This document shows positions 9,922-36,533 of a stretch of DNA of 53,356 nucleotides, one piece after another. The DNA is taken from positions 1 to 53,356 of IMG/VR virus record IMGVR_UViG_3300036861_000789. One strand, written 5' to 3'. Every line of letters starts with the position of its first letter. Within the stretch, counting starts at the first letter, position 1. This DNA is from a virus. The translations under genes were made by a program, and so were the position numbers. The notes beneath the pieces were generated by a model that searched no databases, had not been told where the DNA came from, and was given only the letters and a program-made list of their open reading frames with translations.

Positions 9922-9937
9922 CGCAACACAATTGAAT

Positions 9938-10013
9938 GCCCTTGTAGCTTAGTCAGGTCTAAAGCGCCTGGTCGTCAACCAGGAGAGCGCGGGTTCAAAT
10001 CCCACCATGGGCG
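9938..10013 (+). tRNA. tRNA-Asp(GTC)
   Basis: Acceptor GCCCTTG/CATGGGC (one T-T mismatch), anticodon stem CCTGG/CCAGG, loop TCGTCAA, T loop TTCAAAT. Confidence 0.9.
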
Positions 10014-10027
10014 CGCAGTCGTAAGGT

Positions 10028-10068
10028 CCCCTCACGAGGGGTACACATATATCTTGAGAACTGAACAG
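10028..10068 (+). promoter_or_regulatory. Hairpin plus rRNA-type boxA-like element
   Basis: CCCCT-cacg-AGGGG (10028-10041) is followed after 11 nt by CTTGAGAACTGAACAG (10053-10068). The second string closely resembles the TTGAGAACTCAACAG element in the leaders and spacers of actinobacterial rRNA operons, part of the Nus-dependent antitermination/processing signal. In the middle of a long untranslated array it could keep RNA polymerase elongating. The match is from memory of rrn leaders. Confidence 0.55.
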
Positions 10069-10078
10069 CCACACATAG

Positions 10079-10149
10079 TCTGCCATGGTCTAACGGTAGG
10101 ACATCGGCCTTTGGTGTCGAAAGTCTAGGTTCGAATCCTGGTGGCAGAT
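10079..10149 (+). tRNA. tRNA-Gln(TTG)
   Basis: Perfect acceptor TCTGCCA/TGGCAGA, anticodon stem TCGGC/GTCGA, loop CTTTGGT, T arm CTAGG-TTCGAAT-CCTGG. Confidence 0.93.
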
Positions 10150-10153
10150 CCAA

Positions 10154-10227
10154 TCCCCCTTGGTGTAAATGGAAACACGCCTGACTCTGAATCAGGAGAC
10201 GTTGAGGTTCGAATCCTTGAGGGGGAG
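10154..10227 (+). tRNA. tRNA-Gln(CTG)
   Basis: Perfect acceptor TCCCCCT/AGGGGGA, anticodon stem CCTGA/TCAGG, loop CTCTGAA, T loop TTCGAAT. Only 4 nt after tRNA-Gln(TTG). Confidence 0.93.
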
Positions 10228-10232
10228 CTGCG

Positions 10233-10291
10233 GCAGATAGAGAAATCCTGACCTGGGGTTTTAGCCACCTATCTGCTGCTCAACGAGCAGC
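10233..10291 (+). repeat. Spacer inverted repeats
   Basis: GCAGATAG (10233-10240) pairs with CTATCTGC (10269-10276); directly after, GCTGCTC-aac-GAGCAGC (10275-10291) forms a second hairpin that competes for two bases. Confidence 0.8.
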
Positions 10292-10310
10292 CCAGTGCGA
10301 ATGGGACTGC

Positions 10311-10387
10311 GCCGGGATGTGAAAGCCTTGAAGGGAAGGCAAAGGGCAGCGCAGAGCCTAGTCTGCAAAGCTGCTCTGCATCCCGGC
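10311..10387 (+). ncRNA. Structured RNA candidate, three-way junction
   Basis: A 77-nt element closed by a perfect 9-bp stem, GCCGGGATG (10311-10319) with CATCCCGGC (10379-10387). Inside are two hairpins: GCCTT-gaaggg-AAGGC (10325-10340) and GCAGAGC (10351-10357) with GCTCTGC (10373-10379), whose loop contains TCTGCAAAG. It has tRNA size and an acceptor-like stem but no T arm. It may be a degenerate tRNA or a separate small RNA. It ends 3 nt before tRNA-Leu(CAA). Confidence 0.5.
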
Positions 10388-10390
10388 ATT

Positions 10391-10463
10391 GCCCCGATAG
10401 CCGAATGGTATAGGCGTCTGATTCAAGATCAGAAATTTGGGAGTTCGAATCTCCCTCGGGGTA
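10391..10463 (+). tRNA. tRNA-Leu(CAA), class I shape
   Basis: Acceptor GCCCCGA/TCGGGGT, anticodon stem TCTGA/TCAGA, loop TTCAAGA, T arm GGGAG-TTCGAAT-CTCCC, followed by CCA in the DNA. As in the TAG isoacceptor the variable loop is 5 nt (AATTT), without the class II arm usual for leucine. Confidence 0.9.
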
Positions 10464-10658
10464 CCAAGGCAATGATGTCAACTGGGGTCCAAATCCTGCC
10501 GTGGAGTTCTTAGTCGTTCTTACTCGGCAGGCGAATTCGCCCTTAAGTGCGGTCATTCAGCGGTTTCGCTGATATAAACGCCCTCCCTAAGGGGTCTGCC
10601 GCAACTGCATCATTGCCTCAAACTCGCCGAAACGGACAAAGCGGTGTAGTTTTAATCT

Positions 10659-11102
10659 ATGCCGCAGTGCTCTAAGTGTTCGCAGTGGGCGGAGAAGTAT
10701 GCCAATGGCAAGCGCTGTCGAGAATGCTATAACGCCCATATGCGGATTTACATGCTCAAGCGATACCACGACTGGCGGGCGCTGGCTGTAGAGAAGCTCG
10801 GTGGCAAATGCGTTGACTGTGGCTCGACAGAACAGCTTGAACTCGACCACCGTAACCGTAGCCAGAAGGAATACGTTCTCGGCTCCCTTCGGGGTCGGGC
10901 CAAGTTCTGGAGCGAGATCGACAAATGCGATCTCCGATGCAAGCCGTGTCACATAGTGAAGACTAGAAACGAGAGCACGGTCGGCCACGGTGGTGGCCTG
11001 ACTGGAGTCAAAGGGTGCTATTGCGAGAAGTGTAGACGCATCAGAAATGTCTACATGAAGCAGTGGAAGGCGAACAGGAAACTTCGATCCGTCGTGGCCT
11101 AA
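10659..11102 (+). CDS. HNH homing-type endonuclease
   Basis: A 147-residue HNH nuclease inside the tRNA array. N-terminal C-x-x-C ... C-x-x-C knuckle, then CVDCGSTEQLELDHRNR (the H of the HNH site) and CKPCHIVKTRNE closing the zinc-stabilised fold. It would nick or cut DNA and may move as a free-standing homing gene. Its promoter is leaderless (TAGTTT at 10647-10652, 6 nt before ATG), so it is transcribed independently of the array promoter. The last 15 nt, including the TAA, lie within tRNA-Asn. Confidence 0.9.
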   Translation: MPQCSKCSQWAEKYANGKRCRECYNAHMRIYMLKRYHDWRALAVEKLGGKCVDCGSTEQLELDHRNRSQKEYVLGSLRGRAKFWSEIDKCDLRCKPCHIVKTRNESTVGHGGGLTGVKGCYCEKCRRIRNVYMKQWKANRKLRSVVA

Positions 11103-11159
11103 CGGTATGGCATCGTCCTGTTAAGACGAAAGGTCCCAGTTCGAATCTGGGCGACGGAG
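11088..11159 (+). tRNA. tRNA-Asn(GTT)
   Basis: Perfect acceptor TCCGTCG/CGACGGA, anticodon stem TCGTC/GACGA, loop CTGTTAA, T arm CCCAG-TTCGAAT-CTGGG. Its first 15 nt are also the end of the HNH coding sequence. Confidence 0.94.
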
Positions 11160-11164
11160 CTGCT

Positions 11165-11219
11165 GACAAGGCGGGAACATCATCCAGTCGTGCGGATGTG
11201 CCATTCCACCCGTCTTGTC
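11165..11219 (+). repeat. Spacer inverted repeat (11 bp)
   Basis: GACAAGGCGGG (11165-11175) pairs with CCCGTCTTGTC (11209-11219), one G-T wobble; CATCC/GGATG forms an inner stem. Confidence 0.82.
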
Positions 11220-11226
11220 GGCTCAA

Positions 11227-11298
11227 GTGTCCATAGCTCAGTTGGCAGAGCACTCGGTTGAAGCCCGAGGCGCGGACGTTCGACTCGTCCTGGACGCA
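11227..11298 (+). tRNA. tRNA-Phe(GAA)
   Basis: Acceptor GTGTCCA/TGGACGC, D stem GCTC/GAGC, anticodon stem CTCGG/CCGAG, loop TTGAAGC, T arm GGACG-TTCGACT-CGTCC. Confidence 0.92.
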
Positions 11299-11303
11299 CG
11301 GCT

Positions 11304-11404
11304 TGACATGCGCCAGTTCCGAGCGCGCCGTATGCAAGATGTTGGAGCGAAGCATGTCACGCCGGTGGGGATGGAAAGCCATCGTACGCCCGACTGTCCC
11401 CACC
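11304..11404 (+). repeat. Spacer with two consecutive inverted repeats
   Basis: TGACATGC (11304-11311) pairs with GCATGTCA (11352-11359); then GGTGGGG (11364-11370) pairs with CCCCACC (11398-11404), enclosing GATGG-aaag-CCATC. Confidence 0.82.
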
Positions 11405-11412
11405 AGCACAAC

Positions 11413-11485
11413 GCCCTTGAAGCATTGCGGATCGATGCACCGATCTTGTAAATCGGAGAGCGGGGTTCAACTCCTCGTTGGGGCT
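11413..11485 (+). tRNA. tRNA-Thr(TGT)
   Basis: Acceptor GCCCTTG/TTGGGGC (one T-T mismatch), D stem GCAT/ATGC, anticodon stem CCGAT/ATCGG, loop CTTGTAA, T arm CGGGG-TTCAACT-CCTCG. Confidence 0.87.
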
Positions 11486-11490
11486 CAGAT

Positions 11491-11564
11491 CCTCCTATAG
11501 CTCAGCCGGTTAGAGCACCCGACTCATAATCGGAAGGCCGTCAGTTCGAACCTGACTGGGAGGA
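11491..11564 (+). tRNA. tRNA-Met(CAT), elongator-like
   Basis: Acceptor CCTCCTA/TGGGAGG, D stem GCTC/GAGC, loop CTCATAA, T arm GTCAG-TTCGAAC-CTGAC. The overall sequence resembles elongator tRNA-Met; a lysidine-modified tRNA-Ile2 cannot be excluded from anticodon alone. Confidence 0.88.
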
Positions 11565-11566
11565 CT

Positions 11567-11627
11567 GGGTGAGGACCCAGATCACGGTAACGTCCTGAGG
11601 GCTGAGGGGCCTGCGCTGTCCTCACCC
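11567..11627 (+). repeat. Spacer inverted repeat (10 bp)
   Basis: GGGTGAGGAC (11567-11576) pairs perfectly with GTCCTCACCC (11618-11627), filling the interval between tRNA-Met and tRNA-Ala(GGC). Confidence 0.85.
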
Positions 11628-11631
11628 AACT

Positions 11632-11703
11632 GGGCCTGTAGCTCATTGGTAGAGCACCGCAATGGCACTGCGGAGGCGCACAGTTCGACTCTGTGCAGGT
11701 CCA
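11632..11703 (+). tRNA. tRNA-Ala(GGC)
   Basis: Acceptor GGGCCTG/CAGGTCC, anticodon stem CCGCA/TGCGG, loop ATGGCAC, T arm CACAG-TTCGACT-CTGTG. Confidence 0.92.
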
Positions 11704-11801
11704 CGACCATTCAGCTGGGGGAAGGCTTTCAAGCCGGGCGATCAGCTGACGAATTCAAGCGGACGGGTTAGCCGCTGGTCACAATGATCACCCAGGAACG
11801 G

Positions 11802-11831
11802 CCAGGTGAGCAGGCGCGCTGACTCACCTGG
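11802..11831 (+). repeat. Spacer inverted repeat (9 bp)
   Basis: CCAGGTGAG (11802-11810) pairs perfectly with CTCACCTGG (11823-11831), 9 nt before tRNA-Ile. Confidence 0.82.
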
Positions 11832-11840
11832 GGTTCTTGA

Positions 11841-11914
11841 GCTTGGGTAGCTTAACCGGTCAGAGCCCTTGCCTGATAAGCAGGGAGATCTCAGTTCAAC
11901 TCTGAGCCCAAGTA
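11841..11914 (+). tRNA. tRNA-Ile(GAT)
   Basis: Acceptor GCTTGGG/CCCAAGT, anticodon stem CTTGC/GCAGG, loop CTGATAA, T arm CTCAG-TTCAACT-CTGAG. Confidence 0.92.
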
Positions 11915-12023
11915 CGTGGAACGTTAAAGGGGTGCCGTTGAATGAGATCCACGGGTCCCCACCCCCAAGGATGGTCATCAAAGCCCGCGTCTCTAGGCGG
12001 GTTGCCATACCTGCGTTCCCTTT

Positions 12024-12109
12024 GGAAGTTCCAGCCGAAAGTTGGCGTCGGCCGCTGTCTTGAAAACAGTTGGGGGAAACCCGTAGGAGTTCGACCCTCC
12101 TAGCTTCCG
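12024..12109 (+). tRNA. tRNA-Ser(TGA)
   Basis: Class II tRNA of 86 nt: acceptor GGAAGTT/AGCTTCC, anticodon stem GCTGT/ACAGT, loop CTTGAAA, long variable arm GGG-gaaa-CCC, T arm AGGAG-TTCGACC-CTCCT. Confidence 0.9.
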
Positions 12110-12135
12110 CGTAATCAAACTGAGTAGGAGTCACA

Positions 12136-12888
12136 GTGGCAAAGCTGAACCAGATCATCGCCGTCAACAAGACGGTCAGAGCCGACACGAACAGAGTCGT
12201 CACCGACGCTTACCACGTTTTGCAGAAAGGCCCCCTGCTGACCGGTCTGACCCGGGTGTATCGGCCTCGCGGCGAGGATGGGGAGCAGCTGCCCGGCGAA
12301 GCCAGCCGGGTTCAGGTGCGAGTCCCCGAGGTGATGGATACGGTGAAGGCAGCTTTGGTGAAGCTGTTCGACCTGACCGCTACCTTGGACACCACCAACC
12401 AGGTCGCTAAGGCCGACATCGTCCTGGCCGATGGGACCATACTGGTTGAGCGGGTTCCTGTGTCGACGCTGCTGTTCGTGGAGAAGCAGCTGGTTGACAT
12501 CCGTACCTTGGTCATGAAGCTTCCACTGCTCGATCCGGCTGAGATCTGGTCGGAGTCAACGGAGGAAGGCGTGTGGTCAGCTGACCCGGTGTTTACGGTG
12601 CGGACGAAGAAGATCCCCCGCAATCACGTCAAGGCGGAAGCCACGGACAAGCACCCGGCTCAGGTTGAGCTGTACTACGAGGATGTGGTCGTCGGCGACT
12701 GGACCACGATGAAGTTCTCCGGTGCTGTGCCGCAGAAGGAAGTCAAGGCGATGTTGGCTCGGGTGTCGGAGCTGACCGAAGCGGTGAAGCAGGCTCGCGA
12801 GCACGCCAACAACACCCCGGTTGTGGACTGCAAGGTCGGCGAGCCGATCCTGTCCTACGTATTCTTCGGAGCTGCCCCGGCTTCGTGA
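12136..12888 (+). CDS. Conserved actinobacterial/phage hypothetical protein (DUF7873-like)
   Basis: A 250-residue protein from GTG 12136 with TAGGAG 10 nt upstream, inside the tRNA array. The start MAKLNQIIAV, the middle P-A-E-I-W block and KVPRNHVKAEATDKHPAQ-like segment (here KIPRNHVKAEATDKHPAQ) match, from memory, a hypothetical family spread through Streptomyces and actinophages. Mixed alpha/beta, cytosolic, no known activity. Well-conserved segments such as KFSGAVP and a C-terminal helix suggest a genuine fold. Confidence 0.75.
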   Translation: MAKLNQIIAVNKTVRADTNRVVTDAYHVLQKGPLLTGLTRVYRPRGEDGEQLPGEASRVQVRVPEVMDTVKAALVKLFDLTATLDTTNQVAKADIVLADGTILVERVPVSTLLFVEKQLVDIRTLVMKLPLLDPAEIWSESTEEGVWSADPVFTVRTKKIPRNHVKAEATDKHPAQVELYYEDVVVGDWTTMKFSGAVPQKEVKAMLARVSELTEAVKQAREHANNTPVVDCKVGEPILSYVFFGAAPAS

Positions 12889-12910
12889 TAAGCAGCCCGG
12901 CTTGACCGGG

Positions 12911-12998
12911 TGGAGCACAAGCTGAAGCTCAAGTTGATTGAAGGCCGGTGGCCAGTGGTATAGCCACGAAACACTATCAGGTTCAAGCTATTGCTCCA
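12911..12998 (+). ncRNA. Structured RNA candidate upstream of permuted tRNA
   Basis: An 88-nt element closed by TGGAGCA (12911-12917) with TGCTCCA (12992-12998), then AGCT/AGCT and GAA/TTC pairs, with an inner hairpin GTGGC-cagtggtata-GCCAC (12948-12967) that looks like a D arm. It may be a decayed tRNA 5' region, or a structural partner of the permuted tRNA that begins 49 nt downstream. A simple hairpin CCCGG-cttga-CCGGG (12896-12910) precedes it. Confidence 0.45.
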
Positions 12999-13046
12999 GT
13001 TTCAACCAAAGTTCCTTCACCGAATCGACCAGTCGCAGGCAGTGTT

Positions 13047-13124
13047 ATATGGGCCGGGGTTCGAACCCCCGTCGGGCCTCCAATCATGGCCCGGTCGTCT
13101 AGTGGCAGGACACATGTCTCTCAT
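13047..13124 (+). tRNA. Circularly permuted tRNA-Glu(CTC)
   Basis: The 3' half comes first: anticodon-stem strand ATATG (13047-13051), GGC, T arm CGGGG-TTCGAAC-CCCCG (13055-13071), acceptor TCGGGCC (13072-13078), T, CCA (13080-13082). After 5 nt the 5' half follows: acceptor GGCCCGG (13088-13094), D arm GTC/GAC, anticodon strand CATGT (13113-13117), loop CTCTCAT with anticodon CTC (13120-13122). Acceptor strands pair 7/7 (one G-T) and anticodon strands 5/5 (one G-T). Flanks also pair: 13031-13038 with 13131-13138 (8 bp) and 13017-13023 with 13150-13156 (7 bp). The rejoined 73-nt molecule reads as a normal tRNA-Glu, with the break in the anticodon loop after position 38. Confidence 0.8.
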
Positions 13125-13168
13125 AATGATCTGCGACTTTTAAACGCCGTCGGTGAGTGTATGAACCC

Positions 13169-13240
13169 ATTGAGAAAGCTCTTTTGGTAGAGCGCCTGTA
13201 TATGAAACAGGAAGTCCAGGTTCAAATCCTGGTCTCAAAA
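13169..13240 (+). tRNA. tRNA with anticodon ATG (His?)
   Basis: Acceptor ATTGAGA/TCTCAAA (terminal A-A mismatch), D stem GCTC/GAGC, anticodon stem CCTGT/ACAGG, loop ATATGAA, T arm CCAGG-TTCAAAT-CCTGG. A first-position adenosine in a His-type anticodon is very unusual in bacteria; a proper tRNA-His(GTG) exists at 13482. Could be a mutated duplicate. Confidence 0.75.
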
Positions 13241-13279
13241 TTTGGGGGGGCAGTCAGGGTAGGCTGCTCCCCCAGCCAA

Positions 13280-13351
13280 GGAACGGTAGCTTAACGGGAG
13301 AGCGCTTCGTTGACATCGAAGCAGATACTGGTTCGAATCCAGTCCGGTCCA
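13280..13351 (+). tRNA. tRNA-Val(GAC)
   Basis: Acceptor GGAACGG/CCGGTCC (one A-G mismatch), anticodon stem CTTCG/CGAAG, loop TTGACAT, T arm ACTGG-TTCGAAT-CCAGT. Confidence 0.9.
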
Positions 13352-13353
13352 CT

Positions 13354-13391
13354 GTGCACACCCAGCTCGACCTAGCGGGTTGGGTGTGCAC
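13354..13391 (+). repeat. Spacer inverted repeat (11 bp)
   Basis: GTGCACACCCA (13354-13364) pairs perfectly with TGGGTGTGCAC (13381-13391), 2 nt after tRNA-Val and 5 nt before tRNA-Ser. Confidence 0.88.
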
Positions 13392-13396
13392 TTCCG

Positions 13397-13479
13397 GGAA
13401 GAGTGCCAGAGCGGTTTAATGGACCCGACTGCTAATCGGGTAGGCGAAAGTCTCGCAGGTTCGAATCCTGCTTCTTCCT
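13397..13479 (+). tRNA. tRNA-Ser(GCT)
   Basis: Class II: acceptor GGAAGAG/TTCTTCC, anticodon stem CCCGA/TCGGG, loop CTGCTAA, variable arm about 14 nt, T arm GCAGG-TTCGAAT-CCTGC. Confidence 0.92.
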
Positions 13480-13481
13480 CT

Positions 13482-13554
13482 GTGACTGATCCGGAGGCCT
13501 CAGGAGCCACACTGTGAATGTGGTCATTCGTGAGTTCAAATCTCACCAGTCACC
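13482..13554 (+). tRNA. tRNA-His(GTG)
   Basis: Perfect acceptor GTGACTG/CAGTCAC, anticodon stem CCACA/TGTGG, loop CTGTGAA, T arm GTGAG-TTCAAAT-CTCAC, discriminator C as expected for histidine. Confidence 0.92.
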
Positions 13555-13599
13555 CGATGGGGGTGGGCTACGACTCGCATCCCCACCCATCCCCGTCTT

Positions 13600-13673
13600 G
13601 CCCTTATAGCTCAGTCAGGTAGAGCACTTCCTTGGTACGGAAGAGGTCCGGAGTTCGACTCTCCGCTGGGGCT
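13600..13673 (+). tRNA. tRNA-Thr(GGT)
   Basis: Acceptor GCCCTTA/CTGGGGC (last two pairs mismatched), D stem GCTC/GAGC, anticodon stem CTTCC/GGAAG, loop TTGGTAC, T arm CGGAG-TTCGACT-CTCCG. Confidence 0.87.
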
Positions 13674-13773
13674 CGAACGAATGCGACGTCAGTGAAGTAC
13701 AAGCTGATAAAGACGCATTGGCCCATGACGTCAGGGCGGTTTTTACCGGCTTTCCTTAAAAAAGCCGGGGTAA

Positions 13774-13846
13774 GTCCTTGTAGCCCAACGGATACGGCGT
13801 CCCGCTTCTAACGGGAGGAATGCAGGTTCGAATCCTGCCGAGGACA
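13774..13846 (+). tRNA. tRNA-Arg(TCT)
   Basis: Acceptor GTCCTTG/CGAGGAC, anticodon stem TCCCG/CGGGA, loop CTTCTAA, T arm GCAGG-TTCGAAT-CCTGC. A hairpin CCGGCTTT/AAAGCCGG lies 5-25 nt upstream. Confidence 0.92.
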
Positions 13847-13944
13847 CTATGTGGCCGACGCACCGCAAGTTCAGCAGGCATAAGTGATGTTGGTACACCT
13901 GCTGTCAAGCTCCCCGATCCAACTAGGGCGGCATGCGTCTTCAA

Positions 13945-14016
13945 GCCTTTGAAGCTCAACGGATGAGCACACCCCTCCTAAGGGTGCGGATGAGGGTTCG
14001 ACTCCTTCCAGGGGCA
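13945..14016 (+). tRNA. tRNA-Arg(CCT)
   Basis: Acceptor GCCTTTG/CAGGGGC, anticodon stem CACCC/GGGTG, loop CTCCTAA, T arm GAGGG-TTCGACT-CCTTC. Confidence 0.9.
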
Positions 14017-14067
14017 CTGCGGCGCTGTCCTCGCCGGGGCCTTCAGCCCCAGACTAGACAGCAGCGC

Positions 14068-14137
14068 GGGGTGGCGTATGGTGCCGCAGGAGATCTGCGG
14101 CCTTGCTTGTTATTGCGACATGAAACAAAGCCACCCC
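14068..14137 (+). repeat. Spacer inverted repeat (8 bp) with inner hairpins
   Basis: GGGGTGGC (14068-14075) pairs perfectly with GCCACCCC (14130-14137) around GCCGCAG-gagat-CTGCGGC. A second structure precedes it (GCTGTC with GACAGC around GGGGC/GCCCC, about 14024-14062). Confidence 0.82.
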
Positions 14138-14143
14138 AACCTT

Positions 14144-14216
14144 TCCCTCATGGGCCAGCGGACAGGCCGTCAGTCTCCGAAGCTGAAAATCGCAGGTTCG
14201 AATCCTGCTGGGGGAA
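14144..14216 (+). tRNA. tRNA-Arg(CCG)
   Basis: Acceptor TCCCTCA/TGGGGGA, anticodon stem TCAGT/GCTGA, loop CTCCGAA, T arm GCAGG-TTCGAAT-CCTGC. Fourth arginine tRNA of the set. Confidence 0.87.
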
Positions 14217-14230
14217 CGCAGCACCTTTAA

Positions 14231-14302
14231 GCCCCTGTAGCTCAGAGGCAGAGCAACCGACTCTTAATCGGTGGGCCGGGATTTCGAAATTCCCTGGGGG
14301 CA
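14231..14302 (+). tRNA. tRNA-Lys(CTT)
   Basis: Acceptor GCCCCTG/TGGGGGC, D stem GCTC/GAGC, anticodon stem ACCGA/TCGGT, loop CTCTTAA, T loop TTCGAAA with a weak last T-stem pair. Confidence 0.88.
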
Positions 14303-14330
14303 CTTCTCCGAAGAATGGGAAAGGAGAAGC

Positions 14331-14441
14331 ATGAAAGCTGTTCTCGTTCTGGGAATGGCCGGATTGATCCTAGCGGGGTTGTATCTCCTTTTTGGAGCCA
14401 TAACCCCCATAGTCAGAAGCTGGTGGAGAAAAAGCAAATGA
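14331..14441 (+). CDS. Single-TM miniprotein
   Basis: Thirty-six residues (MKAVLVLGMAGLILAGLYLL...) after AAGGAG at 14321-14326. One membrane helix (residues 3-25) followed by WWRKSK, which places the C-terminus in the cytoplasm. Its stop overlaps the ATG of the lipoprotein gene as ATGA, so the two are translationally coupled and may act together at the membrane. Confidence 0.65.
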   Translation: MKAVLVLGMAGLILAGLYLLFGAITPIVRSWWRKSK

Positions 14442-15397
14442 AGCTCTCTCGGATTACGGGAGGGCTCACCGCAGTCCTCCTCCTGTCAGCAGTCCTCACC
14501 GGCTGCTCCAGCACCACCGAACCCGATCAGGTTGGCCTGTACTACAAGCAGGGCAGCTCGGACGGCAACCAGTTCGACCACTGCACGGAGCCGTCGAAGA
14601 CCGATGACTTCGAGTGGAACAACGACATCATCTACCTGCCGACTTCGCTGCGGACATGGAACATCGCTGGCGACGGTGGGGATCAGACTGAACCGATCAC
14701 AGTCTCATCCAAGCCTCAGGACGGGCAGCCTTCCGGAGTGCCGGTAAATGTCTGGTCGCAGACGAACATGGTGCTCAACACCTTCTGCGACAAGAACGGT
14801 GGGGTGGTGAAGTCGTTCTGGGAGACGATCGGCCGACGTTACAAAGCTGACACCGAGGATGGCTGGAAAGCCATGATGAAGGTGACAGTTGTTCCAGCGC
14901 TGGAGAAGGCAACTCGCAATGTGGTGCGCGGCTATTTGGCCGATGATCTGGTCGCCAACAAAGACGGTGTTCACATCAAAGTTCAAGAGGCCATCGCCGT
15001 AGAGTTTTCGGTGGAGTTGGAGCGCCTGTCGGGTGGAAAGTTCTTCTGCGGCCCAGTGTTCAACCGGGCCAAGCCGGACTGCCCATCGGTCCAGTTGATC
15101 GTCAAGGACATCGACTACAATGATCCAGGCATCCAGGCGGCTCGCAACGAGAAGCAGAAAGCCATCGAGCAGGCTGCGGCGAACAAGGCCAGAGCTGAAG
15201 GCGATGCTGCTGCTCTACTCGCTGCGGCTCAAGGTCAGGTGGATGCGGCGAACAAGATTGCCCAGCTGTACAAGAACCCCGCCTGGGTGGCTTTGAAGAA
15301 GGCCGAGATCCAACTTCAGATCGCCCAGTCATGCGGACAGAACCCCAACTGCCGCATGATCATGGGGGCTGACGGGAACATCATCATCCAACCGTAA
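14438..15397 (+). CDS. SPFH/Band-7-like lipoprotein
   Basis: A 319-residue secreted lipoprotein: signal peptide with lipobox LTGC at residues 22-25 followed by a Ser/Thr-rich linker. The central part (VTVVPALEKATRNVVRGYLA, then IKVQEAIAVEFSVELERLSGG) and the C-terminal EKQKAIEQAAANKARAEGDA coiled helix are typical of SPFH/prohibitin-like proteins, which oligomerise on membranes. RBS GGTGGAG at 14421-14427. Phage SPFH lipoproteins are of unknown role; superinfection exclusion or envelope protection are guesses. It interrupts the tRNA array. Confidence 0.75.
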   Translation: MKLSRITGGLTAVLLLSAVLTGCSSTTEPDQVGLYYKQGSSDGNQFDHCTEPSKTDDFEWNNDIIYLPTSLRTWNIAGDGGDQTEPITVSSKPQDGQPSGVPVNVWSQTNMVLNTFCDKNGGVVKSFWETIGRRYKADTEDGWKAMMKVTVVPALEKATRNVVRGYLADDLVANKDGVHIKVQEAIAVEFSVELERLSGGKFFCGPVFNRAKPDCPSVQLIVKDIDYNDPGIQAARNEKQKAIEQAAANKARAEGDAAALLAAAQGQVDAANKIAQLYKNPAWVALKKAEIQLQIAQSCGQNPNCRMIMGADGNIIIQP

Positions 15398-15500
15398 GGG
15401 ATCTGCGGGGATGGGAGTTGGCGCTCTCGTCCTCGCCCGCCCATCTTTGCCCGAGTGGGTTGGTTTGCAGCCTGTGCCCTAACGTCCGGGAGCACGGCAG

Positions 15501-15560
15501 GGTCAGGTAGTTGAGCACCCTTGGAAGGGGTCCCGGGTGTGCTCACGTCTATACCTGACC
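15501..15560 (+). repeat. Spacer inverted repeat (9 bp)
   Basis: GGTCAGGTA (15501-15509) pairs with TACCTGACC (15552-15560), with an inner GAGCACCC/GGGTGTGCTC stem (2-nt bulge). It is 13 nt before tRNA-Gly(TCC). Confidence 0.82.
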
Positions 15561-15573
15561 TATCGGGCTTTAC

Positions 15574-15645
15574 GCGGTTGAGATGTTACGGCAGCATACC
15601 CGGCCTCCACCCGGGGTGAGTCAGGTTCAATTCCTGCCGACCGCA
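15574..15645 (+). tRNA. tRNA-Gly(TCC)
   Basis: Acceptor GCGGTTG/CGACCGC, anticodon stem CCCGG/CCGGG, loop CCTCCAC, T loop TTCAATT with one T-stem mismatch. Confidence 0.9.
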
Positions 15646-15721
15646 CGCAAATGACAGGGTGGCAGCCTGGGAAGCTCGCCATGTAAGCAACGCGGAATCC
15701 TCAACTCGTGCCCTGCCCCAA

Positions 15722-15792
15722 GTGGATGAAGTGTTAAGGCAGCACCCCACCTTGCCATGGTGGTAGTCAGGGTTCGATTCCCTGTATCCGCA
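15722..15792 (+). tRNA. tRNA-Gly(GCC)
   Basis: Acceptor GTGGATG/TATCCGC, D stem GTG/CAC, anticodon stem CCACC/GGTGG, loop TTGCCAT, T arm CAGGG-TTCGATT-CCCTG. Confidence 0.92.
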
Positions 15793-15811
15793 CTGCGCTC
15801 AGCGGCGCAAA

Positions 15812-15848
15812 GTTCGCAGGTCCCATTCCTTAGGTGGGACCTGCGAAC
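15812..15848 (+). repeat. Spacer inverted repeat (14 bp)
   Basis: GTTCGCAGGTCCCA (15812-15825) pairs perfectly with TGGGACCTGCGAAC (15835-15848), the longest perfect stem in the array, with a 9-nt loop. No T-run follows, so it is not an intrinsic terminator. Confidence 0.9.
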
Positions 15849-15865
15849 ACAGCAGCATAAAGTTT

Positions 15866-15944
15866 GGGAGTGTTGGGCAATTGGTGGCCCAGCTGGCTGT
15901 AACCCAGTGGCTTCGGCGTGCAGGTTCGAATCCTGCCATTCCCA
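15866..15944 (+). tRNA. tRNA-Tyr(GTA)
   Basis: Acceptor GGGAGTG/CATTCCC, D stem GGGC/GCCC, anticodon stem GCTGG/CCAGT, loop CTGTAAC, variable arm of 11 nt (class II as in bacteria), T arm GCAGG-TTCGAAT-CCTGC. Confidence 0.92.
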
Positions 15945-16011
15945 CATGGAACATCGGATGCGCACAGATGTCTGGCGTGATAGCAGGCCCAGCAAACTCG
16001 CCGAATCGGTT

Positions 16012-16182
16012 ATGCGGATCACATGCATCGACTGTGGTGCGGTCTTCACTTCTGAATCACATCGGGAGGGCGGCGGTCTTGCCGCCCAGTCTGAGGTGCT
16101 TGAATTGTGGAAAAAACACGTGGAATCAAGGCATTTTGGTGTGGCTGTTCAGTCCCAACCCGAGACTCGCCCCCGTAGCTGA
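16012..16182 (+). CDS. Small C2H2-type zinc-finger-like protein
   Basis: Fifty-six residues from ATG 16012; an in-frame ATG at 15946 would add 22 residues. C-I-D-C-G is followed 27 residues later by LELWKKHVESRH, a Cys2-His2 spacing. Such miniproteins are frequent in actinophages. The 3' end overlaps tRNA-Lys(TTT) by 14 nt. Expressed, if at all, from array transcripts. Confidence 0.5.
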   Translation: MRITCIDCGAVFTSESHREGGGLAAQSEVLELWKKHVESRHFGVAVQSQPETRPRS

Positions 16183-16240
16183 GGTGGTTTAGCTCCTTCC
16201 TTTTAAGTTGGAGACGCAGGTTCGATTCCTGTCGGGGGTA
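16169..16240 (+). tRNA. tRNA-Lys(TTT)
   Basis: Acceptor GCCCCCG/CGGGGGT, loop CTTTTAA, T arm GCAGG-TTCGATT-CCTGT. The anticodon stem CCTTC/GTTGG has two T-T mismatches. Last recognised tRNA. Confidence 0.85.
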
Positions 16241-16517
16241 CGTGAACATCTTGATGAGCCGATCCAGGTTTGAGCCCTGAGCAGGGGCCGCCTAGATAGG
16301 TGACAGTGTCCAGAACAGACAAGACTCGACCATTCTGGGTTCGAGTCAACGACCCTTTCAATTGCCCCTTCGTCCACACCGTGCATGATCACAGGTCTCA
16401 CGCGGTGGGGACATGCGAGCCAGCTCCCTGGTTTCAAGGCGCAGGCTGCTACCGATTCCCGAACTGGGCTAACCGCTGCGGTGAGCTTCTGGCAAGTAAT
16501 TGCAGCTCACGGTGCTC
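16241..16517 (+). other. Non-coding structured tail of tRNA array
   Basis: No gene or further tRNA is recognised here. It holds two perfect hairpins, GACTCGA (16323-16329) with TCGAGTC (16341-16347) and GTGAGCT (16481-16487) with AGCTCAC (16504-16510). The latter lies just before the next promoter and may end the array transcript, though no T-run follows. Confidence 0.5.
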
Positions 16518-18224: not shown

Positions 18225-18599
18225 CTATGCGCTCATCATGTCGGAGTGATCAATCAGTTCATCTTCGGGCAGTGGGGTGCTGCGCCCATCAGATGCCCGG
18301 GCTCTGGTTGATCTGCGATCCTCAGGTTTGTCAACGGCCAGCAGCCGAGCGTCTTTGAGCTTCAACCCGTTTTTGACCAAAATGGCCGCGACGGGAAAGA
18401 CAACCCGCTTTTTGATCCACCACTGGTCGTAGCCTTTCAAGGTGAGGACGAGCAGGATGTCCATCCCCGCCACCTGGACTTTGACTTCCTCGACGAACTT
18501 GTTGTGCTTGCGCACCAGCTCCGCCGTGGAAGCCATAGCCGCTGAGAGGGTCATGGGATCGTCGGGACGCTCAATCCTGAAGGTGTAGATACGTTTCAC
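18225..18599 (-). CDS. Hypothetical protein, last late gene
   Basis: A 124-residue protein, last of the minus operon. Residues 1-90 look like an alpha/beta domain (EVKVQVAGMDILLVLTLKGYDQWW); the C-terminus is charged and probably disordered. ATGA overlap with the upstream membrane gene. Not recognised. Confidence 0.65.
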   Translation of the reverse strand: MKRIYTFRIERPDDPMTLSAAMASTAELVRKHNKFVEEVKVQVAGMDILLVLTLKGYDQWWIKKRVVFPVAAILVKNGLKLKDARLLAVDKPEDRRSTRARASDGRSTPLPEDELIDHSDMMSA

Positions 18600-18787
18600 A
18601 TCCCCGCCTCTCCTGGGCGCTGTGAGGCCCCTCGCTGGTAGAAGGCTGTGGCAGCCTGGGCCGCACCGACGGTCAGGACGAACAGGCCAACCCAGCGGGT
18701 CTGCACGAACTCAGCCAGGATCGCCCCACCCGATAGGATGTGCGCGAACACCAGAGCCGACTGCCAGATCAGCATGGGCTTACTCAT
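18596..18787 (-). CDS. Two-TM membrane protein, holin candidate
   Basis: Sixty-three residues from the ATG at 18787. Two hydrophobic helices (about 7-27 and 32-50) separated by a short QTRW turn and a charged C-terminal tail give a class II holin-like topology. It lies 1 kb downstream of the endolysin in the same operon. The holin role is inferred from topology and position. Confidence 0.55.
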   Translation of the reverse strand: MSKPMLIWQSALVFAHILSGGAILAEFVQTRWVGLFVLTVGAAQAATAFYQRGASQRPGEAGM

Positions 18788-19061
18788 GGGGGACGAAAAC
18801 CCAATCCAAGGCCAGCACATCACTGACAGTGGGCACCCATGGCACGAATGAGTCATCGGCTGTGCACAGCATCAGATAGGGCCGGAAGACGCAGACAGTG
18901 CCCTCGGGGATGCCGGTAGCCTGCGCTGTGTTGGCGTTGATGGCAATCCCGTCCGGGTAGCCTTTCTGGAGCACCACATATTGGCCTGGGGCGTTCCAGC
19001 CTTGCCGAGTGACCTTGCTGCCCACCAGGCGTAGCCGTACTAGTGCTTCGCTGAAATCCAC
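18780..19061 (-). CDS. tad2-like: DUF2829/Tad2-like anti-Thoeris protein
   Basis: Ninety-three residues. MDFSEAL at the N-terminus, K-V-T-R-Q-G-W-N (16-23), P-Y at 61-62, VPW at 73-75 and SDVLALDW (80-87) reproduce the DUF2829 signature. This family includes Tad2, which sequesters the cyclic ADP-ribose-type signal made by the Thoeris defence system so that ThsA is not activated. Start GTG 19061 after GAGGAG. It sits among the lysis genes of the late operon, so the protein may be made late. Membership is clear; ligand binding is inferred. Confidence 0.8.
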   Translation of the reverse strand: MDFSEALVRLRLVGSKVTRQGWNAPGQYVVLQKGYPDGIAINANTAQATGIPEGTVCVFRPYLMLCTADDSFVPWVPTVSDVLALDWVFVPHE

Positions 19062-19071
19062 GATGACTCCT

Positions 19072-19377
19072 CTACTTGATCCATGCCGCGATGAAAGCTG
19101 CTGCGGCCACAGCTGCTGCGATCGAAAACCACATCCCGTTGAACTGGGTCTTCAAAGCCGCCCGATCTTTGGCCTGCTCGGCTTTGTCTGCGGCCATGGT
19201 CTGCTCCACGATCGTGACCCGCCGCACGATAGCTTCCTGCTCAGCGGCGTAAACGTCCCGGCGCACAAACGCGGTCATCTGAATGCGCCACTCTTCACGA
19301 AAGTCGCACAAAGTTCGGTACATCTCTCGGTTCGTCGGCATGTCATCGTCATACGCTGGCGCAGGTGTCACGGTCAT
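19072..19377 (-). CDS. Tail-anchored coiled-coil membrane protein (holin candidate)
   Basis: About 101 residues from the ATG at 19377 (RBS weak; ATG 19341 is possible). A helical charged region (residues about 20-75) leads to one C-terminal membrane segment, MWFSIAAAVAAAAFIAAWIK. This layout resembles XhlA-type or DUF2746-type phage lysis accessory proteins. Adjacent to the endolysin cluster, so a lysis role is likely but unproven. Confidence 0.6.
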   Translation of the reverse strand: MTVTPAPAYDDDMPTNREMYRTLCDFREEWRIQMTAFVRRDVYAAEQEAIVRRVTIVEQTMAADKAEQAKDRAALKTQFNGMWFSIAAAVAAAAFIAAWIK

Positions 19378-19402
19378 AACCAATGGTCGTGTTTTTCTCC
19401 GG

Positions 19403-19735
19403 TTAAAACAATGTAAAAGCAGCAAAAGTGAGATTCGCGTCGGAAACATCAAATTCCAGTACGGAGCCGTACAAATCCACCGGGAAAGGCCCCAGCTCGA
19501 CACCGAACGAATTAGCGGGGATGGTCAGGACAATGGGCGGCGGAGTCTGGAAGTCAACCGTTTCGACCAGGATCGTGGAGACGGTTGCATCCATACCGGC
19601 ACCCTGGACGTAAAGCAGCGTGGCCCCATCGTTGATCATGCGCATTCCGTTGGCGACATCACCCGGCGTCCCTGTGGCCACAGAGAACACCTGAAGCCGG
19701 GAAGTCCTTTGCACCGGCACGTCAGTCCTGGCCAT
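19403..19735 (-). CDS. Hypothetical beta-rich protein
   Basis: A 110-residue, beta-rich protein with RBS GAGGGG. The small-residue-rich sequence without Cys resembles phage decoration or tail accessory proteins. Located between the endolysin and the lysis-type membrane genes. No family assigned. Confidence 0.6.
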   Translation of the reverse strand: MARTDVPVQRTSRLQVFSVATGTPGDVANGMRMINDGATLLYVQGAGMDATVSTILVETVDFQTPPPIVLTIPANSFGVELGPFPVDLYGSVLEFDVSDANLTFAAFTLF

Positions 19736-19744: not shown

Positions 19745-20350
19745 TCATTTCGTTCGTAGCGCCCCAAGTGTCTGCGGCCCAAGCCAGCCATCGACCTTCA
19801 GTCCATTGCGCCGCTGGAAAGCTCTGACAGCTGCCAGTGTCGCAGGCCCGAAACGCCCGTCGACAACCAAACTCGCCATATGCCCATTGAGATAAGCCTG
19901 AGCCTGGCGAACCGAAGTGCCCACCATGCCGGACTTCAAAGTCTTCCACGCCGGAGCCGTGGCGATCATCAGCCACGGGGCGCTCGAATTCTCCGCCACC
20001 TTCGAATGCTCAATCGAATCGTGGACGTGCTCGGTGTGCGGATTCGAGCCGGTGTAATCCTTCGGCTTGAACAGATTGTCGATGTGCCAGATCCGGCGGC
20101 GATGTATGACATAGCGTGTCGACGGGTGCAGGAACATCGACGTCAGGACGGTAGGGATATGGACGCCGTCCTTATCCAAGTCAATGGCCCGGACAACGCC
20201 GGTCACCGGATCCGGGTTGTGATCCGAAGTCCGAGCCGCATGGGCTTTGTCGCCTATCCAGCCGTCGGAACTGTGGTCGCGATGTGGCCAGCGGGTGTTG
20301 ATGGCATGTTGCAATCCACTCAGACTCGGTGCCAGATACGGTTCAGGCAT
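19745..20350 (-). CDS. Endolysin: zinc peptidase plus peptidoglycan-binding domain
   Basis: A 201-residue lysin from ATG 20350. The N-terminal domain has RTSDHNPDPVTGVVRAIDLD and HTEHVHDSI, placing His, Asp and His as zinc ligands of an M15/D,D-peptidase-like fold that cuts peptide stems in the wall. The C-terminal domain (KSGMVGTSVRQAQAYL ... DGRFGPATLAAVRAFQ ... DGWLGPQTL) is a PG_binding_1 module. No signal peptide, so release would depend on a holin. Overlaps the upstream small gene. Confidence 0.85.
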   Translation of the reverse strand: MPEPYLAPSLSGLQHAINTRWPHRDHSSDGWIGDKAHAARTSDHNPDPVTGVVRAIDLDKDGVHIPTVLTSMFLHPSTRYVIHRRRIWHIDNLFKPKDYTGSNPHTEHVHDSIEHSKVAENSSAPWLMIATAPAWKTLKSGMVGTSVRQAQAYLNGHMASLVVDGRFGPATLAAVRAFQRRNGLKVDGWLGPQTLGALRTK

Positions 20351-20483
20351 CGTCGGCCTCGTTGTCGTCAGCCGCATCGGAACCCATGTGCTGCTCAGGG
20401 TCGTCGTCTTCGGCCCACCTGGTGATCTCGTCGACTATGAGCTTCTCGGGGTCGAAACTGAAGCCCTTCATGGATTCGGTCAT
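20343..20483 (-). CDS. Small acidic protein, leaderless
   Basis: Forty-six residues, very acidic C-terminus (DAADDNEADDA). TATGAT (20490-20495, minus strand) lies 6 nt before the ATG with no RBS, giving a leaderless start and a private promoter for the lysis genes. Its stop overlaps the endolysin start. Function unknown. Confidence 0.6.
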   Translation of the reverse strand: MTESMKGFSFDPEKLIVDEITRWAEDDDPEQHMGSDAADDNEADDA

Positions 20484-20516: not shown

Positions 20517-21026
20517 TCACTGCGTCTGAAGAAGAGCCGACCACTGGACAATGACATTTACCCAAGTTGACGAAGGCCCATAAACGAACAACGTGAAACC
20601 TGTCGTAGAAACACTGATGGCTCGCGACTGCCAGCTGGCAGCAGAAGCCGTGCCATTGTCGATGTTGGCATGCACTGACGGCATAGCCGAGAATGGCACG
20701 GCGAACACGACAGCGACAGTAAACGAGGTCTGAGCCGAGAAGCTGATCAGATTCTGTCCTGCCTGCTGCTCCACCACCACCGGTGTCGGCAGAGCCTGCA
20801 CATTGCCCATGGCCAGCCACGATGTGGGATCCGAACCGGACTGAGGCGACTGGCCCAGCAGAGCCACTGTGTCGCCAACAGTGGGCAGGTAGGAACCCAG
20901 CACCCCCACATCGGTGAAAACGGCCGTTTGCACATTCACCGTTAAAGGCGACACCGTAACAACCACGCCGATCCGAACCGTGGCTGGCTGACCCACCGCC
21001 GAGCGGATCTGCGTAGGCAAACCCAT
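20517..21026 (-). CDS. Tail protein with C-terminal H-type lectin-like domain
   Basis: A 169-residue protein from ATG 21026 (TGATG overlap). Residues about 15-70 are a small beta barrel (VRIGVVVTVSPLTVNVQ ... VGDTVALLGQ) as in baseplate or spike OB domains. The C-terminal 80 residues (VFAVPFSAMPSVHANI, then a late VNVIVQWSALL strand) match the H-type lectin pattern. Probably part of the distal tail that touches the cell surface. Confidence 0.65.
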   Translation of the reverse strand: MGLPTQIRSAVGQPATVRIGVVVTVSPLTVNVQTAVFTDVGVLGSYLPTVGDTVALLGQSPQSGSDPTSWLAMGNVQALPTPVVVEQQAGQNLISFSAQTSFTVAVVFAVPFSAMPSVHANIDNGTASAASWQSRAISVSTTGFTLFVYGPSSTWVNVIVQWSALLQTQ

Positions 21027-21724
21027 CAGGCCACCCGCCACACCAGCAGACGCGAACCGATTCGGACAGTTGTATTCGTGGCATCCGAAGTGTTCTGCGC
21101 ATACTGGGTTTGCAGATTACCGGCCGTGCCGCCCATGACGATGTGACCATAGGTGGTGCAGATGGTTCGGGTTCCCACCGCCGCACCGCCGACTGGAGTC
21201 GCTGTGCCCGATGCGGTCTGGACGGCGAACTGGCCATCACCCGTGGTAGCTGTCGCCGTTGTGGCCAAGCCTTTCATGCCCCAGCTGGCCACAGCCCCGG
21301 CGGGCCAGGTGTAAGCCACTTTGAAGTCAGCGGTTTGGCTGGAATCGTAGAAGAACATCGCCTCCCACATGAAAGTTCCCGCCGTCGGCAAAGCGGAAAG
21401 CAGAACCGCGTCGGAAACCAGGGTCGTTGACCCATTGATGGGAGCAGCATCAGTGGTCCTGAAAGCTTTCGTGAACAATCCCCGGGTGTAGTCGCTGTAA
21501 TACACAGCCCCCTCGAAGCAGTCCCGGCGATTCTCGGCAGCCAGGTCGGTGACATCGCCTTCAACGGGGGCGGTGTGGCGGGCTGTGCGGTCGGCTTCGT
21601 TGGTGTACTTGAGAACCAATCGCGTTTCAACATCAGCGATCATGTCGGTGAACGCCAGCGGATTATTCGCGAGATCCGGGCCGACAGGGATGGTGATCTG
21701 CTGATCAGGCGTGTTCGTCGACAT
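21026..21724 (-). CDS. Minor tail / fibre protein
   Basis: A 232-residue protein. The N-terminal 60 residues look like an attachment segment; the rest is beta-rich, ending in TTVRIGSRLLVWRVA, a closing strand common in actinophage tail-fibre heads. Probably a surface-exposed tail component. Function inferred from position and composition. Confidence 0.6.
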   Translation of the reverse strand: MSTNTPDQQITIPVGPDLANNPLAFTDMIADVETRLVLKYTNEADRTARHTAPVEGDVTDLAAENRRDCFEGAVYYSDYTRGLFTKAFRTTDAAPINGSTTLVSDAVLLSALPTAGTFMWEAMFFYDSSQTADFKVAYTWPAGAVASWGMKGLATTATATTGDGQFAVQTASGTATPVGGAAVGTRTICTTYGHIVMGGTAGNLQTQYAQNTSDATNTTVRIGSRLLVWRVA

Positions 21725-23590: not shown

Positions 23591-24703
23591 CTACACCACC
23601 CCTTCCAGTGTGCCCAGGACCTGGGACCGACCCGAAACCGTCATCAAACCGGACACATCCAATGGTATGCGAAAATCTGCTACAACCTGCACAATACCGG
23701 TCCTGTCGCGAACGTCCAGACTCACCACATCACCCAGTTCCAGCGCCGCGTCCGGCGTCATCGTCCAGGACCATGAATCCACCAGAGCGCTCAACCGGCG
23801 TAGATTGTCAAACGCGGCACCTTGAGCTGAGGACTGGGTAGCCGGGGTCTGCAACCGCATCAGCTGATGACGACGGCCGAAGGCCCCGTTGATGTAAGTC
23901 AGTGACTCAGGTGTGGTGTCCTGGGCTGTGGCGTAAACGGGCGCATCCCCGTTGAGTCGCTCGCCGGTGACAGTCAGGGAGTTGTACACCGACTCACGGG
24001 AACGCGACGCAGCCGAGGCGATCACAGAGCCGCCAGGCCCATCGGAGTAGGTGACAATAGGATTGGCCGGGACGGTCCACTGGTAGCGGCGCAGCACGAA
24101 ATGCCCGTCGGCCAGGGGATACCAGAATGCGCCCACCGACTGGGCCAGCTCATCCAAAGCCTGAGCCCGGTCCAGCTGCCATGTCAAAGGCTGCACCGGC
24201 TGGGCGAACAAGTCGAAGGTGCCAAACGTCGCATCCGCTTTAGCATCCGAGATGAGCCGCATGATCTCGGTGGGGACGGTGACACCCGTTTGGGAGTTCT
24301 CCGGCAGCAGGAACTTCACATCACTGATGTCGGTGGCGAAGTCAGCGGCGAAGCACCGAACCGTCCCGTCCTCGTTCAGCTGGGTTTGCTGAATCCGGCC
24401 GATGAACACCGTCCACGCCATTCGGGAGTTGTCGGCGAACTCGATTCCCCGTTCGGCTTTCAGGATGTTGCCATACGGGGCGAGTAGATCCGTTGCCAGG
24501 TAAGGATAGAACGATTCATCGAAGCTGATGTCGCAGGTGCGTGATACTCGCGATGTCAGCGTCGCGGAAACAGAGCCACCCAGGTAGGTGAGTCCTTCTT
24601 CCAGAATGTTGCGGTTGCCGTCCAAAATGGAAATGTTGAAATACGGACGATGTGATGTCGCCAAAGCCGCCCGGTACATCGCATCCAAACCACCTGGGAG
24701 CAT
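23591..24703 (-). CDS. Minor tail protein (DUF5047-like)
   Basis: A 370-residue protein. N-terminal strands (YFNISILDGNRNILEEGLTYLGGSVSATL) followed by SRTCDISFDESFYPYL and a later RAQALDELAQSVGAFWYPLADGHF match the DUF5047/gp27-like hub proteins of actinophages, which sit at the tail tip below the distal tail protein. ATG overlaps the upstream gene stop. Confidence 0.7.
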   Translation of the reverse strand: MLPGGLDAMYRAALATSHRPYFNISILDGNRNILEEGLTYLGGSVSATLTSRVSRTCDISFDESFYPYLATDLLAPYGNILKAERGIEFADNSRMAWTVFIGRIQQTQLNEDGTVRCFAADFATDISDVKFLLPENSQTGVTVPTEIMRLISDAKADATFGTFDLFAQPVQPLTWQLDRAQALDELAQSVGAFWYPLADGHFVLRRYQWTVPANPIVTYSDGPGGSVIASAASRSRESVYNSLTVTGERLNGDAPVYATAQDTTPESLTYINGAFGRRHQLMRLQTPATQSSAQGAAFDNLRRLSALVDSWSWTMTPDAALELGDVVSLDVRDRTGIVQVVADFRIPLDVSGLMTVSGRSQVLGTLEGVV

Positions 24704-34841: not shown

Positions 34842-36533
34842 CTACACGGTGATATCGGTGCAGGTGACTGTCTGGAGTGCTGAGGTGGCACCAGATGGGC
34901 AGATGTTGACGGTGTAGACCCGGCTCAGTGGGCACATGCGCATCACAGCCCAGCCGTCTTCCATGAACAGCTGAGTCACCAGGTTCTGCGGCAGGTTCAC
35001 CGAGTCGTAGATGCTCTCCAGCCGGATAACGTCCTGACGTGCCAGGACCCATGTGCCCGCCGGGTAGGCCAGGAACTGGACCTGCTTCGGTGAAACCTGG
35101 GCTGGCAGGGTCAGGATCGGGGTGTCCGCACCTGGTCCGGTGACCACACCTGAGAACGCGTCCTGCCAGTCGTAAACCCACTGGACCCGAGCGTTTCGCA
35201 TGGTGAACCAGGCGGTGATGTCAGCATCGGTCAGACCGACACCGTCGAAGCCCGTGCGGCGGCTGAAGTCCTGACGGAACAGAGCCTTGAGCCAGTACGG
35301 CAGAACGATTTCGACAGTTGAGTTCTGTGCCATGCGAAGCCGGTATTGGATGTCGACGATCGCCATCTCCACGATGCCGAGCACGTTGGAGATGAGACTG
35401 TTGTCGCTGGCCCATGGGTCAACGGCAGATGGGGCTACGGCTGTTGACCCGGCCACGATGTCGGCGATGATTTCGCGGTTGACGAAGTGGGCATAGGTTG
35501 CCAGCGCACCCTGCACGAAGGTGCTGACGAACTCCGGGTAGGCCCGGTTCTGGAGAATCGCCCCGGTCAGGCAGAGAACGGTCACCTTGAGGCGATCGTC
35601 CACAAACGGAGGACATGGGATTTCGACACAGGTCTTGGTGGTGTCGGCGATGACCTGAGCTTCAGTCAGCTCGTTGAAGCCGGTGCCGGTGCCGAAGATC
35701 GAGTCGAATTCGATGCCCTGGTTGTGCCGGATGCCGCCTCGGCGGGCCAGAACCTCGGGACCCTGCCACATGCCGTCGGTGGCGATCTGGAGACATGTGG
35801 TGTACAGGGTCTCCGATGGTGAGCACCAGCCGTTGGCCGCGACCAGTGAGCCACCTTCAAGGCGGGTTTCGTCGGCTGCGCGCAGGAGAACCTGGTGCAT
35901 CGACTCTTCGCCCATCTCCTCGGTGAGGATGAACTCCGGCGAGAAATTGCGTCGCAGCTCAGCGATCGGGTGCTGGAGCACGTTGGTGGACGCGCCCGTC
36001 TTCGGATAGGTCCGGATCCGTGAGCTGAAAGCGTCGGCGAAGTCGCGCCAGCTGGTGAACTCCCGGCCGTCGGCTACACCTGGGATGTTGTTGGCCGCGA
36101 CCAGCGAGTGATTCGGTCCGAGCCAGCTTTCCTCGGTGAGGACCAGTTCGGTGGCGGGGGCCAGCTGGGCGACCTGGGCCATGGTTGGTCGTGGTGCCGG
36201 AGTGATGTCGTCGATGGAGGCGACGATGACTTCAGTCTCGACTGGCGCTGGTGTCACCGGCTCGACCGGCGCAGGGACCTCCGCTGGGGGCAGGTCTTCC
36301 AGGGTCAGGGTGGCGAAGCTGGCTGCCCGTTCGCGGCGTGCGGTGATGTCTGTCTGGGCTGCGAGACCGAAGGCGTGAAGTTCGGTGATGCGGTTCAGGG
36401 TTTCATCGTCGACGCTTTGTGGGTCGGCTACACCTGCTCGTAGGGTGCGTAGTTCTTCGGTGGCTACGCGAAGCAGATCTTCGAGTCCGGCGACGCTGAA
36501 GACGCTCAGGTCGGCGGGGATCTGGAATGGCAT
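34842..36533 (-). CDS. Major capsid protein
   Basis: A 563-residue HK97-type capsid protein. Residues 1-130 are a helical plus Pro/Val-rich region (PPAEVPAPVEPVTPAPVE) acting as scaffolding delta domain, probably removed by the upstream protease. The fold proper follows (VLQHPIAELRRNFSPEF, then VDDRLKVTVLCLTGAI and late FLAYPAGTWVLARQDVIRLESIYDS). RBS AAAGGA and a strong promoter 90 nt upstream suit high expression. Confidence 0.85.
   Translation of the reverse strand: MPFQIPADLSVFSVAGLEDLLRVATEELRTLRAGVADPQSVDDETLNRITELHAFGLAAQTDITARRERAASFATLTLEDLPPAEVPAPVEPVTPAPVETEVIVASIDDITPAPRPTMAQVAQLAPATELVLTEESWLGPNHSLVAANNIPGVADGREFTSWRDFADAFSSRIRTYPKTGASTNVLQHPIAELRRNFSPEFILTEEMGEESMHQVLLRAADETRLEGGSLVAANGWCSPSETLYTTCLQIATDGMWQGPEVLARRGGIRHNQGIEFDSIFGTGTGFNELTEAQVIADTTKTCVEIPCPPFVDDRLKVTVLCLTGAILQNRAYPEFVSTFVQGALATYAHFVNREIIADIVAGSTAVAPSAVDPWASDNSLISNVLGIVEMAIVDIQYRLRMAQNSTVEIVLPYWLKALFRQDFSRRTGFDGVGLTDADITAWFTMRNARVQWVYDWQDAFSGVVTGPGADTPILTLPAQVSPKQVQFLAYPAGTWVLARQDVIRLESIYDSVNLPQNLVTQLFMEDGWAVMRMCPLSRVYTVNICPSGATSALQTVTCTDITV

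Follow-up and report, generated by a model that had tools for sequence, protein, structure and literature searches.

A Tad2-like gene in the late head-to-lysis operon of an uncultivated phage: a probable late-made sponge for a nucleotide immune signal

The Tad2 proteins that have been tested are sponges, i.e., they form homotetramers composed of V-shaped dimers, in which two gcADPR molecules are held at interfaces of the β1-β2 loop, the β3-β4 loop, and helix α3 (PMC12043709). Some Tad2s, such as HgmTad2, also hold two cyclic dinucleotides at a separate insert, the β2-β5 insertion (PMC12043709). Tad2 of phage SPO1 binds gcADPR and blocks type I Thoeris (PMC12043709) and does not bind 3'3'-cGAMP (PMC11722364); ModTad2/MoTad2 binds His-ADPR and blocks type II Thoeris (PMC13299392). 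In staphylococcal and streptococcal Thoeris, as studied with other phages, signalling begins when the system meets the major head protein (PMC12578639). Expression of other immune evasion proteins falls in the early to middle phase of infection (PMC13232231).

The window analysed here is the whole stretch of 53,356 nucleotides of the viral record IMGVR_UViG_3300036861_000789. It carries a tad2-like gene on the minus strand, with coordinates of exactly 18780-19061, a GTG start, and a product of 93 amino acids. The motifs that the initial annotation had reported there are all found in the translation, as (V/M)DFSEAL, RQGWN, FVPW, and SDVLALDW, and the proposed membership of the Tad2/DUF2829 family is backed by Pfam, by PHROGs, and by homology to solved Tad2 proteins. 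PF11195 (Tad2-like, formerly DUF2829) covers the whole length of the protein, with profile positions 1-73 of 73 aligned to residues 1-90 (E 2.3e-20); because the match scores 73.3 bits against a gathering cut-off of 25, chance is excluded. A search of the whole raw record gave no other PF11195 site. The protein also matches two PHROG families of unknown function (E about 1e-22 and 1e-19). The core motifs of the PF11195 family, RxGWN ... PY ... W ... D-x-L-x-x-D-W, are present. In a set of 45 relatives taken from viral contigs, there is no variation at R19, W22, P61, Y62, or D86 and almost none at G21, N23, W75, D81, L83, and W87, and the window protein keeps every position that is invariant or at least 90% conserved in this set. 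Residue 85 is E or D in most relatives but hydrophobic (L/M) in the window protein, where it is L, and in that of a sister phage contig from another metagenome (L002). GC content and third-position GC of the gene equal those of the operon. Judged on these sequence features, the gene can securely be regarded as a real, conserved member of the Tad2/PF11195 family.

Solved structures matched in phmmer or profile searches were those of ModTad2, SPO1 Tad2, HgmTad2, SptTad2, and AcrIIA7. ModTad2 was the best match in the structural database (phmmer E 1.2e-11, profile E 1.4e-22); SPO1 Tad2 was matched with E 8.8e-7 and the AcrIIA7 chain with E 5.5e-6. The profile search also matched a chain of 8kbi (E 3.5e-18), which bears the deposited name 'Inhibitor of Type II CRISPR-Cas system' and which we take to be the sponge HgmTad2. 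The window protein belongs to a subfamily whose members share a block, GYPDGIxxNxxTAxAxGxxEG, in the stretch that joins the GWN segment to the PYL strand; the exactness of this block is in part due to the search patterns, since these included QKGYPDGI. The block itself is confirmed because residues outside this pattern (N42, T45, A46, A48, G50, and G54) are also conserved, and it recurs, with variation, in three phage proteins found by plain tblastn (Listeria A511, Brevibacillus Abouo, and Vibrio 1.205). The aligned solved Tad2s lack the GYPDGIxxNxxTA block and differ among themselves in that region. In a tree of 56 rows, the forks are poorly resolved, and the window protein is not close to any structurally characterised member. 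ModTad2 had been considered as a guide to the ligand, since it is the nearest BLAST match and would thus point to His-ADPR; this assignment was dropped because the two proteins do not fall together in the tree, whose resolution is poor. As for the pocket, several conserved residues fall in segments that we assign, at segment level, to the β1-β2 loop and helix α3, which form walls of the gcADPR pocket (PMC12043709). The conserved residues of the GWN loop and α3 are kept, but position 85 has L in place of the usual acidic residue, and the central loop is unlike that of the solved members.

The late-operon setting proposed in the initial annotation is confirmed by family and profile matches. On the minus strand, like tad2, lie in order the terminase (43502-44908), portal (41281-43158), major head protein (34842..36533; phrog_777), tail genes (one at 23591-24703), and endolysin, and the operon ends at 18225. 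The major head protein, encoded in the same late gene cluster as tad2, is of the class that triggers known Thoeris systems. A 756-aa protein encoded at 38307-40577 (minus strand) matches PHROGs named portal protein and head maturation protease, despite the separate, clear portal gene. At the distal end, six minus-strand genes form a compact block, in which neighbours overlap or lie about 10 bp apart. The block begins with the endolysin (19745..20377; C-terminal peptidoglycan-binding domain, PF01471; PHROG endolysins) and a 110-aa protein of unknown function (19403..19735; phrog_38030). The next protein (19072..19503), directly upstream of tad2, has a C-terminal hydrophobic segment and is holin/XhlA-like by architecture only; its real start is probably an internal ATG near 19339. 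Tad2 follows as the third gene from the distal end, and then a small membrane protein (18596..18793; about 62 aa from its ATG), holin-like by context only. A 124-aa protein (18225..18599), whose gene overlaps the preceding stop (GTGA) and is the last of the leftward operon, has no family match in Pfam or PHROGs. Thus, the earlier description of the neighbours as holin-type stands insofar as both flanking ORFs encode a hydrophobic segment, but neither matches a named Pfam or PHROG family. In another relative, L005, the gene order is endolysin, holin, tad2, and there the immediate upstream neighbour of tad2 does have a PHROG holin match. Just upstream of the window's endolysin, 20517-21041 (minus strand) encodes a protein whose C-terminus resembles H-type lectins (PF09458, 23.6 bits, the cut-off being 24) and which is possibly a receptor-binding or wall-binding part.

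The tad2 gene is closely fitted to its neighbours. The gap to the upstream gene is 10 bp, which leaves no space directly upstream of tad2 for a dedicated promoter. The translation-initiation region (19062..19074, minus strand) contains a Shine-Dalgarno-like motif, AGAGGAG, that overlaps the TAG stop of the gene before it, and the tad2 stop codon shares bases with the ATG of the following gene (ATGAGTAA). L002 retains both features, its Shine-Dalgarno-like motif being identical, and there the whole block from the endolysin to the 124-aa protein has an unchanged order. The Tad2-like protein of L002 is 86% identical to the window protein, and with L002 as the reference, dN is 0.078, dS 0.624, and dN/dS about 0.13, which indicates that the gene is under purifying selection. 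A scan of 7.3 kb for a promoter of tad2 itself gave two promoter-like sites against 2.5 expected, none of them upstream of tad2 within the lysis block, although actinobacterial promoters are poorly covered by such a scan.

The initial annotation had considered a place at the end of the late operon unusual for an early-acting inhibitor. However, the relatives do not bear this out. The survey covered 39 viral or genomic loci in which one or more genes close to tad2, no further off than about two or three genes, had been scanned. Matches to head, packaging, connector, or lysis families occurred in 20 of these loci, clearly non-late matches in six, and no match in 13. In a wider tally of 103 neighbours, most belong to the portal, minor head, major head, and scaffold families. 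In annotated phages, tad2 lies between minor head and scaffold genes in SpaA1, near the major capsid gene in Vibrio 1.205, and beside the terminase in Lactobacillus Lb. In L006 (4090-5267), the major head protein gene ends in TGATGG, and tad2 starts inside its stop codon; if Thoeris of the L006 host senses the head protein, this would be a direct trigger-inhibitor gene pair. Exceptions among annotated phages are Listeria A511 (tRNA cluster), Abouo (right arm), and N4. A small phiNM1 ORF, gp41, occupies the position of SpaA1 tad2 and, at 56 aa, was judged too short for a Tad2. The recurrent late-module placement should be read as a strong trend, and not as a measured enrichment, because the counts lack a control set of random genes, structural genes are named more readily than others, and the loci are partly dependent on one another. 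The suggestion that the placement might imply a separate promoter or another role likewise finds no support: promoter-like sites do not exceed chance, the late position recurs, and the known trigger of Thoeris in staphylococci and streptococci is itself a late protein (PMC12578639).

It appears probable that the 93-aa protein is a late-made Tad2-type sponge for an ADP-ribose-derived or related nucleotide immune signal. That it acts as a sponge for a signal is the best inference, with gcADPR, His-ADPR, or a cyclic dinucleotide as candidate ligands, and it is reasonable to infer that a Thoeris signal is trapped. The protein would be made late in infection from the structural/lysis operon and assemble into a Tad2-type homotetramer, which would bind the immune signal produced by a host TIR enzyme such as ThsB. 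Sequestration of the signal would keep the effector from killing the cell before lysis, i.e., Thoeris would be inhibited. The late timing would suit a defence triggered by a capsid protein. Late co-expression of tad2 makes sense given that the major head protein is what Thoeris senses in staphylococci and streptococci, and a sponge encoded in one late gene cluster with the head protein would therefore be made when the signal is expected. More speculatively, and with considerable doubt, the GYPDGIxxNxxTA Tad2s might be a distinct sponge subclass with its own immune signal, wired into head and lysis operons for co-production with the Thoeris-triggering capsid protein, in what would be a trigger-coupled counter-defence.

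Other roles have to be weighed against a sponge for a Thoeris signal. The protein might have the Tad2 fold and yet trap a CBASS or other cyclic dinucleotide through the β2-β5 insert, as published for HgmTad2. The profile match to 8kbi, if it is HgmTad2 as we presume, and the conserved insert between the GWN segment and the PYL strand are consistent with such a role, the β2-β5 insertion being the dinucleotide site in Tad2 (PMC12043709). However, the insert of the window protein is shorter than that of HgmTad2 and unrelated in sequence, and since SPO1 Tad2 does not bind 3'3'-cGAMP (PMC11722364), dinucleotide binding is not family-wide. We therefore regard this ligand class as unlikely. It is quite improbable that a PF11195 protein has turned into a structural, assembly, or lysis-timing factor and is retained in head and lysis operons for that reason. 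The repeated embedding of tad2 in head and lysis modules would agree with such a change, as would the translational overlaps of tad2, which in the window and L002 involve a membrane protein gene and in L006 the gene for the major head protein. Nonetheless, the neighbours vary among relatives (terminase, portal, minor head, major head, endolysin/holin, tRNA cluster, and right arm), and thus a movable accessory gene fits better than an assembly part; moreover, the protein has no hydrophobic segment and keeps the family-conserved positions. Least credible is an AcrIIA7-like type II anti-CRISPR protein, to which the name of the neighbouring family, the homology to the AcrIIA7 chain, and the anti-CRISPR annotation of the Tad2-like protein of Escherichia phage Louie would point, because the AcrIIA7 match is weaker than those to ModTad2 or SPO1 Tad2, the Louie annotation is probably a name transfer inside the same fold family, and 8kbi, with its CRISPR-inhibitor title, is presumably a sponge.

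Neither megablast nor blastn found a DNA-level relative of the phage in the phage collection. Its nearest terminases are those of Microbacterium, Gordonia, and Arthrobacter phages, at less than 40% identity, which makes an actinobacterial host plausible. Matches to ThsB_TIR in genomes that carry related genes (Actinoplanes and others) were set aside as evidence of Thoeris in candidate hosts because the frames are mostly longer than 1000 aa (one of 404 aa) and more like large multidomain TIR proteins than like the ThsB of Thoeris. No TIR (ThsB) gene was found in the phage itself. On the plus strand, 2919-3329 encodes a 136-aa protein matching PF10686 YAcAr (YspA/cpYpsA-related SLOG family; E 7.5e-7). 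SLOG is the fold by which Thoeris ThsA senses cADPR isomers, and the presence of a SLOG protein and a Tad2 protein in the same phage may be a coincidence. There are also 32 tRNA genes (5779-16241), all on the plus strand, including two for tRNA-His, one of which has the unusual anticodon ATG. Adjoining this cluster, 14315-15397 (plus strand) encodes a 360-aa protein with weak Band_7/SPFH similarity and a match to a phage lipoprotein PHROG.

With this gene, the counter-defence family Tad2 gains a member from an uncultivated phage; the family is known, and the linkage of this subfamily to head and lysis genes is a mildly interesting genomic pattern. This recurrent linkage removes the apparent puzzle of a 'late' inhibitor, and it predicts that late sponges suffice against capsid-sensing Thoeris, but not against systems that sense early. 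If transcription confirms it, the late timing of tad2 would be a real difference from the early-to-mid evasion proteins (PMC13232231).

Among the described systems, ModTad2/MoTad2 of a Myroides odoratus prophage (PDB 8v3e, 9eib) resembles the window protein in length class, RxGWN, RPYL, and W-P-S-V-S-D-hydrophobic-L-A-x-D-W, but it lacks the GYPDGIxxNxxTA block and falls in the other half of the tree. SPO1 Tad2 (Gp34.65; PDB 8sme, 8smf, 8smg, 8wje) shares the family and the core motifs and differs in the sequence of the central loop. HgmTad2 (PDB 8kbi and others) and AcrIIA7 (9kzr) are of the same family, but their central insert is longer and unrelated in sequence. Escherichia phage Louie CDS0064 lies directly after holin-endolysin-spanin genes; however, it has an extra N-terminal part and lacks the GYPDGI block. 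Similar proteins also occur in phages of Bacillota, and among these, P7 of Staphylococcus phage SpaA1 has a GYPDGI block like that of the window protein, to which it is 50% identical, and is likewise encoded within a late module, although in its case this is the head operon, between minor head and scaffold genes, rather than the lysis block.
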